From positions 930,001-994,000 of the forward strand of contig NZ_CP091740.1 in the NCBI RefSeq assembly GCF_022014595.1: a stretch of DNA of 64,000 nt, given 5' to 3'. A program made the position numbers and the translations under genes. Shown in pieces: positions 50,946 through 54,971 of this stretch. Below the pieces are notes generated by a model. The model was not told where the DNA came from and did no database searches. It saw only the letters and a program-made list of their open reading frames with translations. The DNA is from Solitalea lacus (GTDB taxonomy: Bacteria; Bacteroidota; Bacteroidia; Sphingobacteriales; Sphingobacteriaceae). Positions within the stretch are counted from its first letter, which is position 1. The number at the start of each line of letters is the position of its first letter.

Positions 50946-51494
50946 CTATGAGCTATGAACATTCAATTTGATGAGCGCAAATACAGCATAGTTAATCATA
51001 TCCTGATAGTTGGCTTCAACACCTTCAGAAACCAGGGTTAAACCTTTATTATCCTCAATTTGCTTAACGCGTAAGATTTTCATTAAGATTAAATCAGTTA
51101 ATGAACTTACACGCATTTCGCGCCATGCCTCACCATAGTCATGATTTTTGTCTTGCATCAAGGCTTTGGTTTCGGCTATTTTAAGGTTGTACAATCGCTC
51201 GGTTTCATCAAATGGCAACTCCAGCGGATCGTTTTCAGTAAGTTGTAACTGAATTAAAGCAATAACACAATAGTTGATAATGCCGATGTATTCGGGAGCG
51301 ATACCCTCGTTCACCTTGCTTATTTTTTTTTCTTCCAGGGTGCGAATGCGCTGTGCTTTGATAAAAATTTGATCGGTAATAGATTCGGGGCGGAGAATAC
51401 GCCAGGCGGTGCCATAATCTTTAGCTTTTTTTAGAAACAGCTGTTGGCACTGTGCTATAACCGAATCGTACTGTGTTCCTGTAGTAGTTTGCAA
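50946..51494 (-). CDS. DUF1599 domain protein
   Basis: The 182-residue protein contains two DUF1599 repeats, each with a KDYGTAWRILRPESITDQ or HDYGEAWREMRVSSLTDL segment (about 24-95 and 108-175). The function is unknown. The repeated motif with conserved Tyr-Gly and Trp-Arg suggests a pseudo-symmetrical helical bundle. It heads the DUF1599-BT_3928 unit, and its 5' side faces a decayed folP fragment. Confidence 0.88.
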   Translation of the reverse strand: MQTTTGTQYDSVIAQCQQLFLKKAKDYGTAWRILRPESITDQIFIKAQRIRTLEEKKISKVNEGIAPEYIGIINYCVIALIQLQLTENDPLELPFDETERLYNLKIAETKALMQDKNHDYGEAWREMRVSSLTDLILMKILRVKQIEDNKGLTLVSEGVEANYQDMINYAVFALIKLNVHSS

Positions 51495-51597
51495 TTCTTA
51501 ACTTTTTAAGAGTATTAGTTTAAATATCTAACCAGCATGTTATACTATTTATCGTTTTTGTACATTGTTTAAATGCAGGTTATCTTTATACAGTGAT

Positions 51598-51776
51598 ATG
51601 TTAAAAGGCAAAAATACATTTTTTTCGAAGCGAACAACCCTTAATTGCAATGGTCAGTTGGTTGACTTGTCAGAGCCTAAGGTTATGGGCATCCTGATGG
51701 GGGTAAATATATTTCTGTAAATGAATCTTTACATCGATGTGAACAATTGCTAACCCAAGAGCTTGTGATAATCATC
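51598..51776 (+). pseudogene. folP: 5' fragment of a second folP (dihydropteroate synthase)
   Basis: ATG 51598 opens a frame reading MLKGKNTFFSKRTTLNC and SEPKVMGIL, matching the N-terminus of the intact FolP at 53245 (TLNC, DPKVMGIL). The frame is then disrupted: about 25 bases that would encode the family signature NITPDSF are missing near 51694-51700. After a shift it resumes as GKYISVNESLHRCEQLLTQE, matching GKYNSVNASLQRCEQLLTEG. It ends near 51776, so only the first quarter of the gene remains. It starts about 100 bases from the divergent DUF1599 gene. Confidence 0.88.
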
Positions 51777-51781
51777 AATAC

Positions 51782-51972
51782 ATAGCCCATTGCCATGCCG
51801 CTAGCTTTCCTGGACCGAATGAAATTGATGAGTTTCAAGAGCTGCATTATCCAGCCATAATGAAAGCAATTAAAGAGAGCGGATTTAAGGATACGTTGCC
51901 TAGAAGTTTATTTCCAAACAAACCGAAAAAAATTGGCGCTTAAAAAAGCTATATAAAATTGTGCTGTATAAG
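51782..51972 (+). pseudogene. 3' fragment of a hydroxypyruvate-isomerase-like (TIM-barrel sugar isomerase) gene
   Basis: The reading HCHAASFPGPNEIDEFQELHY and PAIMKAIKESGFK matches the C-terminal part of hydroxypyruvate isomerases (the family form is GNPGR-E-DE-QELNY--IMKAI). It then shifts frame: GYVA, a TAG, then KFI with further decay up to a remnant like LKKAIKIC and AV-stop. I count at least two lesions. There is no upstream part of the gene. Its source is not present in the window. Confidence 0.65.
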
Positions 51973-51974
51973 AA

Positions 51975-52465
51975 AGTACACTAAAACTGAAAATCAACAG
52001 AGAAAAGAGTAAGGTTTGCCCGGTCAATGAAAGCAAATTTTTAGGTTACACCATTCAAGGTGATGGTCGGTTAACGATTGCCGAACAAAGCAATAAAAGC
52101 CAATTTACGCTAGAGGATATAGCCAACAAGCTAAATCCCAAAATCAGAGGTTGGATAAACTATTTATGGGACAATAAGCCGAAGAAGTTTGAGTCCGGTG
52201 TTCTACTATCTGCATCAACAAGCCATAAGTTGGGTTCTGAACAAGTACACTCGTTTTAGAGGAAGCAAACTTAAAGCTATTGCCTGGCTCAAGATGATTG
52301 GAAAGTCATATCCTAACTTATTCTATCATTGGGGATTATGATACAAGCTGTTCTGAAGATAATAAAAGAACAACCCGACTGAATGCGAAGAGCCGTATGA
52401 CGGGAGACTGTCACGTACAGTGCTGTGAGAGGTTTAGGGGTGAAATCCCCCTTTACCTACTCGAC
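51975..52465 (+). mobile_element. 3' remnant of a group II intron (maturase C-terminus plus domains V and VI)
   Basis: The intron-encoded protein remnant reads LKINREKSKVCPVNESKFLGY, then LTIAEQSN, then a short gap, LNPKIRGWINYL. One extra T near 52161-52166 shifts the frame, and the rest continues as PVFYYLHQQAISWVLNKY, TRFRGSKLKAIAWLKM and YPNLFYHWGL, stop 52339-52341. Domain V starts at 52390 (GAGCCGTATGACGGGAGACT) and is followed by a domain VI hairpin (AGGGGTGAAATCCCCCTT). The intron ends near 52465 (CTACTCGAC). Compared with the usual DV, the distal strand has changes (ACAGTGCT where ACGGTTCT is usual). The reverse-transcriptase part is missing, so it is immobile. Confidence 0.85.
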
Positions 52466-52547: not shown

Positions 52548-53000
52548 TTAGCTTTTTTGAACTTCAATTGCGCTGAGTCCCTTCGGCCCTTTTTCTGTTT
52601 TGAAAGTCACCTTATCATTTTCTTTAATTGGGCTGATAAGGTTGTTGACATGCACAAAAATACTTTCCTGCGTTTGGTGATCCTTAATAAATCCAAACCC
52701 TTTTGATTCATTAAAAAAGGTAACTGTTCCTTTTCTGCTTTCTTGTGTTAAATCAATAGCTTCAGTTCTGGCAACAGCAATTTGAATGTCTTCAGAATTT
52801 ATTTTCACCTTTTTTGTAGGATCTGGAGGGGAAGAGGTAATATTGCCAAACTCATCAACATAGGCCATCATGTTTTCAAGGCTTTTGCCCTTGCTCGAAT
52901 TGGCTTTGCGCTCTTCTTTCTTTTGCTCTTTGTCTTTTTGCTTTTTTAATCGTTTTTTCTCGTTTTCTTTCTTACTAAATGTTTCTGAGGATTTACCCAT
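52548..53000 (-). CDS. Cold-shock-domain protein with a long charged N-terminal extension
   Basis: The 150-residue protein has a cold-shock domain in its last 65 residues (GTVTFFNESKGFGFIKDHQT, SIFVHVNNL), with the RNP1 and RNP2 aromatic positions present. The first 40 residues are nearly all Lys, Glu, Arg and Ser (KKENEKKRLKKQKDKEQKKE). A middle linker is acidic. The domain binds single-stranded RNA or DNA, probably as an RNA chaperone. A -7-like TACCTTTG sits at 53049-53042 (minus) and a short GCGGA/TCCGC hairpin is in the leader. Confidence 0.87.
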   Translation of the reverse strand: MGKSSETFSKKENEKKRLKKQKDKEQKKEERKANSSKGKSLENMMAYVDEFGNITSSPPDPTKKVKINSEDIQIAVARTEAIDLTQESRKGTVTFFNESKGFGFIKDHQTQESIFVHVNNLISPIKENDKVTFKTEKGPKGLSAIEVQKS

Positions 53001-53244: not shown

Positions 53245-54105
53245 ATGCACAATAGCCCATTTTTTGATAAGCATAGAACCCTGAATTGCGGCGGCCGGCT
53301 GCTTGTTTTGTCCGATCCTAAAGTAATGGGGATTTTAAACATTACCCCCGATTCATTTTTTGACGGAGGGAAATATAATTCGGTAAATGCATCATTACAA
53401 CGTTGTGAGCAATTACTAACCGAAGGAGCTGATATAATTGACTTGGGAGCATACTCTACTCGCCCAGGGGCAGCTGTTATTTCCGAAATGGAAGAAATAG
53501 AACGAGTGCGGACAGTTTTGCAAGAAATCTGCCGGCAATTTCCCCAAGCAATTATCTCCATTGATACATTCAGGGCTGAAGTTGCCCGGGTGGCTGTAAA
53601 TGAGGGAGCCGCTTTAATTAATGACGTGTCAGGAGGAGAGTTGGATGAGAAAATGTTTGAAACGGTTGGTTTATTAAAAGTTCCTTATATACTAATGCAC
53701 ATGCGTGGTACCCCTGATACAATGCTGCAATTAACGACGTACGATGATTTATTAAGTGAAATAATCCGTTATTTTTATGAAAAGGTCGCTCGTTTAAGGA
53801 CATTAGGGGTGAATGATATTGTGTTGGATCCAGGTTTTGGTTTTGCTAAAACAGTTGAACAGAATTATAAACTTATGGCTCATTTGGATGATTTTAAAAT
53901 CTTTGATTTGCCTTTACTTGTAGGTGTTTCACGTAAGTCAATGATTTATAGATTGCTGCAAACTGATTCGCAGTCGGCATTAAATGGTACATCAATATTA
54001 AATATGGTTTCATTACAGCAAGGAGCAAACATTTTAAGGGTGCATGACGTAAAAGAGGCCGTTGAGGTGGTGAAGATTTTTAATGCACTAAATAATAACT
54101 ATTGA
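53245..54105 (+). CDS. folP: Dihydropteroate synthase
   Basis: The 286-residue enzyme joins dihydropterin pyrophosphate and p-aminobenzoate in folate synthesis, and is the sulfonamide target. Motifs are visible: VMGILNITPDSFFDGGKY, IIDLGAYSTRPGA, ISIDTFRAEVARVAV, LMHMRGTPDTM, VLDPGFGFAKTVEQNYKLM and LVGVSRKSMI. The length is normal. The next gene, cdaA, lies about 70 bases downstream in the same direction. A decayed second copy of the 5' end lies at 51598-51776. Confidence 0.97.
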   Translation: MHNSPFFDKHRTLNCGGRLLVLSDPKVMGILNITPDSFFDGGKYNSVNASLQRCEQLLTEGADIIDLGAYSTRPGAAVISEMEEIERVRTVLQEICRQFPQAIISIDTFRAEVARVAVNEGAALINDVSGGELDEKMFETVGLLKVPYILMHMRGTPDTMLQLTTYDDLLSEIIRYFYEKVARLRTLGVNDIVLDPGFGFAKTVEQNYKLMAHLDDFKIFDLPLLVGVSRKSMIYRLLQTDSQSALNGTSILNMVSLQQGANILRVHDVKEAVEVVKIFNALNNNY

Positions 54106-54173: not shown

Positions 54174-54971
54174 ATGAACTCATTTGATCTGGTATTTTCC
54201 GATTTTGGCATATTCGACTTAATAGATATACTGCTGGTAGCTATTCTAATATATCTGTTTTACAGTTTATTGCGCGGCACTATCGCTATTAATATCCTTG
54301 TCGGTTACCTTCTTATTTATTTGTTCTATTTGCTGGTAAAATCATTGGAGATGCGTTTGCTTACCACCCTTTTTAACGGATTTTTTCAGGTAGGTGTAAT
54401 GGCATTAATAGTTGTTTTTCAGCCCGAAATAAGGAAGTTTCTGTTAATGGTCGGTAAGAACTTTAAATTGTATCGCAACGAATATTGGTACCGTTTATTT
54501 GTTCGTAATAAGGTCATCCAAAAAGAACTTGAACAAACACAGATTAAACCAATTTTAGATGCATGTAAGGTAATGCAGGAAACCAAAACCGGAGCCTTGA
54601 TTGTTTTTGCGAAGAATCCTGAAGAGGAGCATTTTTATAAAAACGGTGAAGAAATTGAAGCGATGGTTTCAAAGCGGTTGCTCGAATCAATTTTTAATAA
54701 ATACAGCCCTCTGCATGATGGTGCCGTGATTATATCCGAAGGGAAAATTATGGCAGCAGCCTGTATTTTACCATTGACAGATAATCAGGATATTCCACCT
54801 TACATGGGTCTGCGTCACCGGGCGGCCTTGGGTATTTCAGAAGTTGCCGATGTGTCAGCTTTGGTAGTTTCGGAAGAAACCGGGAATCTTGCTTATGCTC
54901 GCCAGGGGAAAATTAAATCAAACATTTCACTGAATGATTTAGAGCGGAATCTGCGTAAGGATTTGATTTAA
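54174..54971 (+). CDS. cdaA: Diadenylate cyclase CdaA
   Basis: The 265-residue membrane enzyme makes c-di-AMP from two ATP. Three N-terminal helices (about 14-35, 38-56, 68-84) precede the DAC domain (about 110-250), which has the DGA motif (182-184, SPLHDGAVIISEG) and RHR motif (214-216, GLRHRAALG). The frame opens at 54123 upstream of a better start. ATG 54174 (MNSFDLVFSDFGIFD) matches CdaA beginnings. It follows folP; no CdaR or GlmM gene is adjacent. NrnA-type phosphodiesterases, one at 23083, may degrade its breakdown product pApA. Confidence 0.95.
   Translation: MNSFDLVFSDFGIFDLIDILLVAILIYLFYSLLRGTIAINILVGYLLIYLFYLLVKSLEMRLLTTLFNGFFQVGVMALIVVFQPEIRKFLLMVGKNFKLYRNEYWYRLFVRNKVIQKELEQTQIKPILDACKVMQETKTGALIVFAKNPEEEHFYKNGEEIEAMVSKRLLESIFNKYSPLHDGAVIISEGKIMAAACILPLTDNQDIPPYMGLRHRAALGISEVADVSALVVSEETGNLAYARQGKIKSNISLNDLERNLRKDLI

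Follow-up and report, generated by a model that had tools for sequence, protein, structure and literature searches.

A decayed folP remnant in the ancestral folP slot beside DUF1599 in Solitalea lacus

Introduction

If a chromosome carries one intact folP next to cdaA and one decayed folP next to DUF1599, which of the two is the original occupant? This question is raised by a locus in Solitalea lacus that lies within a window of 64,000 nucleotides, the whole stretch of DNA analysed here (positions 930,001 to 994,000 of contig NZ_CP091740.1). The original prediction suggested that the decayed copy is the original gene and the intact copy a later replacement. A literature search found no directly relevant report.

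Results

The fragment is the 5′ end of a folP gene

The fragment comprises an ATG and about 60 codons, interrupted by a gap (Table 1). Its local alignment to the intact folP scores 61.5, while 300 shuffles reach at most 24.5, a result that refutes chance similarity, and tblastn detects two collinear FolP pieces (residues 6–31 and 40–65, E 1.7e-12). Mis-assembly is countered by the genome being a single contig with an estimated completeness of 100%. No support was found for either artefact, and we regard both as negligible possibilities.

In the alignment to the intact gene, the codons for NITPDSF are absent from the fragment as a clean 25-bp deletion. This deletion falls between two TGA triplets, because the fragment reads ATCCTGATGG where the congener G003 has ATCCTGA-25 bp-TGG; such a TGA-flanked gap is what slipped-strand deletion would leave. 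The loss of the NITPDSF signature (about 25 bases) and of the later three quarters of the gene, as originally predicted, is thus confirmed by alignment and tblastn. The predicted range, 51598–51776, is correct at its start but not at its 3′ end: folP homology stops near 51763 and the last bases are the remnant of another gene, so that we placed the boundary, near 51764, by the start of the next homology.

Compared with folP (PF00809), the fragment shares the first quarter, the start codon and the genus-type sequence, and collinear homology identifies it as a folP. It differs in that the NITPDSF pterin-site motif, all FolP residues after about 65 and a complete TIM barrel are missing, and it is not functional; it can encode a peptide of 40 residues at most, and no DHPS activity should be expected of it.

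Table 1 Features at the DUF1599–folP–cdaA locus, in window coordinates.
Feature	Position	Strand	Evidence or remarks
DUF1599 (nucleotide modification associated domain 1)	50946..51494	-	Pfam PF07659, E 3.9e-63; ancestral divergent neighbour of folP
Spacer between DUF1599 and folP remnant, 103 bp	51495..51597	.	No detectable similarity either to the region of the cold-shock gene or to DNA upstream of the intact folP genes in the genus
folP remnant	51598..51763 (end approximate)	+	ATG, open frame MLKGKNTFFSKRTTLNCNGQLVDLSEPKVMGIL, 25-bp deletion of NITPDSF, followed by GGKYISVNESLHRCEQLLTQ, then ends
Hydroxypyruvate-isomerase-like TIM-barrel gene, 3′ end to stop codon, frameshifted	51764..51971	+	tblastn, DNA alignments
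Group II intron reverse-transcriptase ORF piece, 122 bases	51972..52093	+	97% identical to the intron at G000:C1, about 2503698
Second group II intron, 3′ part: frameshifted maturase C-terminus, then domains V and VI	52092..52465	+	Rfam RF00029, Pfam GIIM
Cold-shock-domain protein gene	52548..53000	-	PF00313; congeners G003 and G001 also have it between DUF1599 and folP
Intact folP (dihydropteroate synthase)	53245..54105	+	PF00809, 256 bits, positions 1–244 of 244 (complete Pterin_bind)
cdaA (diadenylate cyclase)	54174..54971	+	PF02457, PF19293; synteny; ancestral downstream neighbour of folP

The remnant opens an 870-bp mosaic of gene and intron debris

An 870-bp mosaic, absent from the original prediction, starts with the folP remnant and continues into the 3′ end of an isomerase-like gene and then into parts of two group II introns, all on the + strand. 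The isomerase-like piece, which we take to belong to the hydroxypyruvate-isomerase-like family, matches the last 68 residues of a family homologue (226–293) with 51% identity (tblastn, E 2.8e-18), and the 53-residue piece gave no Pfam match. It is a second pseudogene, not mentioned by the original prediction: a search for another copy in the four genus genomes (G000, G001, G002 and G003) found none, and none of them holds an intact copy. Of 151 genomes sampled from the family, 80 contain a match to the piece.

The intron debris begins at 51972, directly 3′ of the isomerase-like stop codon (51971), and is a chimera of two group II intron types (51972–52465) joined at a 2-base overlap (52092–52093). 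It resembles group II introns in its maturase C-terminus (GIIM, PF08388, 28.7 bits with a cut-off of 23) and its domains V and VI (RF00029, 49.6 bits with a cut-off of 40), but differs from them in being 5′-truncated and chimeric; its 494 bases hold only frameshifted 3′ parts, with neither a complete ribozyme nor an open reverse-transcriptase ORF. The nearest relative found for the second intron is an intron of genome G140, at 73% identity. This genome carries 17 domain-V matches (for example L162–L172), many of them in near-identical families, against 0 in the three congeners, and has undergone a recent group II intron expansion. Among the matches listed for plasmid records, the intron end alone is represented, and no folP or isomerase part.

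The composition of the mosaic allows a reading in which the whole of it is one chimeric cDNA. The reverse transcriptase of a group II intron would have started from an intron 3′ end and then moved in turn onto RNA of a second intron, mRNA of an isomerase and mRNA of folP. Such an origin would account for every piece lying on the strand of the intron, for the complete 3′ end and missing 5′ end of the intron, and for the seamless joints. A random mRNA, however, would not be expected to land exactly in the ancestral slot of folP, the isomerase gene is absent from this genome, and divergence is 25% between the folP piece and the resident gene but 3% between the intron piece and its parent. We consider this reading very improbable; were it true, an intron reverse transcriptase would have written gene fragments into a bacterial chromosome as a chimeric retro-sequence.

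The folP fragment is best described as a dead gene remnant inside a patch of gene and intron debris and not as a new system. The remnant is real and ordinary in kind: a pseudogene in debris, in a genome that group II introns have recently colonised.

The remnant and the intact gene each keep half of the ancestral neighbourhood

The loci compared, 110 folP genes with their surroundings, came from the class and from named Bacteroidota genomes. DUF1599 is divergent from folP in 90 of them, the median gap being 78 bp; in 34 of the 90, cdaA also follows folP, so that all three genes stand in order. A divergent DUF1599–folP arrangement is therefore usual in Bacteroidota, as the original prediction held, and the remnant, whose gap of 103 bp agrees with the predicted distance of about 100 bases, stands in the ancestral slot. 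The intact gene was likewise placed correctly, 1.6 kb further on beside cdaA: it starts 1,647 bp downstream, and cdaA is the next gene.

Relatives thus have folP between DUF1599 and cdaA, and each copy here holds one half of that context. The remnant matches the conserved DUF1599/folP/cdaA cluster of Bacteroidota in its orientation and spacing relative to DUF1599, and the intact gene does so relative to cdaA. The locus departs from the cluster in having two folP copies, a cold-shock gene and the debris patch between DUF1599 and cdaA. In the window, only the intact gene is followed by cdaA, a link that is kept in all four genus genomes, while the DUF1599–folP pair is broken in all four. The interval between DUF1599 and folP holds a cold-shock gene in G003 and G001, and the remnant, debris and cold-shock gene in the window. 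In G002 (L035, 4576–5658) unrelated ORFs take the place of the cold-shock gene: within the genus, the content of this spacer is often altered.

The intact gene is unlikely to be a newcomer

The proposal that the intact folP is a replacement, with the remnant as the original gene, draws on the remnant adjoining DUF1599 and on its sequence being in part more consensus-like than that of the resident (Tajima chi-square 5.1 with G002 as outgroup, 1.6 to 2.6 with others). The synteny argument is right for DUF1599, yet the intact gene is not thereby a newcomer, because the remnant keeps the DUF1599 side and the intact gene the cdaA side. Alignment of the 130 bases upstream of the resident folP with the corresponding DNA of G003 and G001 scores higher than shuffles, which is not so for the DNA upstream of the remnant. 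The cdaA linkage of the intact gene, as in relatives, and its upstream DNA, common to congeners, both speak against replacement, as does the fact that all three congeners carry a single folP, of the resident type only. Both copies, moreover, fall in one genus clade. Replacement is unproven and on balance unlikely, and that the remnant is the original folP and the cdaA-side gene its later substitute strikes us as improbable.

The history of the wider locus was followed in protein trees. In a CdaA tree, the genus groups with Sphingobacteriaceae with full support. In a broad FolP tree, the FolP of the genus (53245–54105) pairs with a sequence from a Proteiniphilum MAG (L074); the deep nodes are weak, and therefore no claim made here rests on that pairing. 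The genus may have acquired folP by transfer at its base, in which case remnant and resident would both descend from the transferred folP.

The remnant belongs with the folP genes of the genus

Between the remnant and the intact folP, gap-free identity is 75% (122 of 162 sites); the value of two thirds given in the original prediction holds when gaps are counted. The four best DNA matches of the remnant among the 110 folP genes are the four genus members. AU tests rejected its placement with the family outgroup G004 (p-AU 0.0002) and likewise with L074 (p-AU 0.009), the FolP from outside the genus that lies nearest in the protein tree. The remnant belongs with the folP genes of the genus and is not an older family-type folP. 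The two copies are thus not drawn from different source lineages in the sense of xenologous replacement, since both lie in the genus clade and the tested outside placements are rejected; a source within the genus is possible.

The original prediction held that a fragment closest to the gene of its own genome would be an ordinary duplicate. The remnant is nominally closest to the resident gene, with 75% identity against 73, 72 and 69% for the other genus folP genes, but the difference is not significant. Within the genus, where the branching order is itself poorly resolved, a position as sister to the resident (G000) was best or accepted, and on the 162 alignable sites the AU test does not separate it from several others; the remnant may be sister to the resident gene or slightly older. 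In line with the prediction, the fragment is probably no recent copy of the resident gene. The first half of the remnant is nearest G002 and the second nearest G000, yet we did not adopt recombination between the halves: in whichever half G002 or G000 scores low, that sequence is divergent from all the others.

A single folP is the rule among relatives. The second Pterin_bind match of this genome was rejected as a folP, as it lies in a 1253-residue frame that is probably methionine synthase, and a search of the congeners’ DUF1599 spacers for remnants of a second folP found nothing above shuffles.

The extra copy was probably a working gene until recently

Differences between the remnant and the resident gene number 6, 10 and 22 at codon positions 1, 2 and 3. 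Where the congeners are unanimous, in a comparison resting on 149 sites, changes unique to the remnant number 3, 0 and 6 (9 in all) and those unique to the intact gene 5, 5 and 9 (19). As the differences are mostly at third positions and a long-dead copy would not look so, we infer from these sites that the remnant was probably under selection, as a working gene, until recently.

Discussion

We propose that an extra genus-type folP occupied the ancestral slot, arose by duplication within the lineage and was recently broken by deletions in an intron-disturbed spacer, an explanation that in our judgement has about an even chance of being right. A second genus-type folP would have stood beside DUF1599 while the present gene was next to cdaA. 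This extra copy would probably have come from a duplication around the parting from the sampled congeners, leaving DUF1599 and cdaA to flank two copies, and would have been held for a while by purifying selection before, being redundant, it was recently broken. One deletion may have taken the last three quarters of the gene and fused the remainder to the 3′ end of the hydroxypyruvate-isomerase-like gene, a slipped-strand event of 25 bp would have removed the pterin-binding motif, and group II intron pieces may have landed or recombined just downstream.

Several observations weigh against duplication. None of 58 folP-bearing relatives has two folP, so that long retention of two copies would be unusual; and the DNA upstream of the remnant is unlike that of the intact gene, with no simple tandem copy including a promoter visible. 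Remnants of the cold-shock gene or of a folP promoter, expected upstream of the remnant from a tandem duplication of a cold-shock/folP unit, were not found there, scores lying within those of shuffles.

Also against duplication, the congeners lack both the isomerase-like gene and the introns, a hint that foreign DNA was involved. Because the debris beside the remnant is foreign to the congeners, the main rival is horizontal import from an unsampled congener with a DUF1599–folP pair, by a recombination event that was anchored at DUF1599, ended illegitimately within folP and brought along a foreign isomerase fragment and introns. Import would also explain the ancestral slot and would suit a remnant that is its own genus-level lineage, 25% away from the resident gene and with recent lesions only, as well as island neighbours that are foreign to the other genus genomes. 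Against it, DUF1599 near the remnant has no local excess divergence, its first 120 bases being 88% identical to those of G003, with no sign of foreign origin, and no donor was seen. We judge import possible but rather unlikely.

The locus resembles duplication followed by pseudogenisation, and in situ gene displacement, in that a gene is present twice in a single ancestral neighbourhood and one of the copies has decayed. It differs in that there is no evidence of the surviving copy being foreign relative to the decayed one. A gene pair as highly stable as divergent DUF1599 and folP can pass through a two-copy stage, and its ancestral slot can stay marked by a decayed copy after the neighbourhood has been reshuffled.
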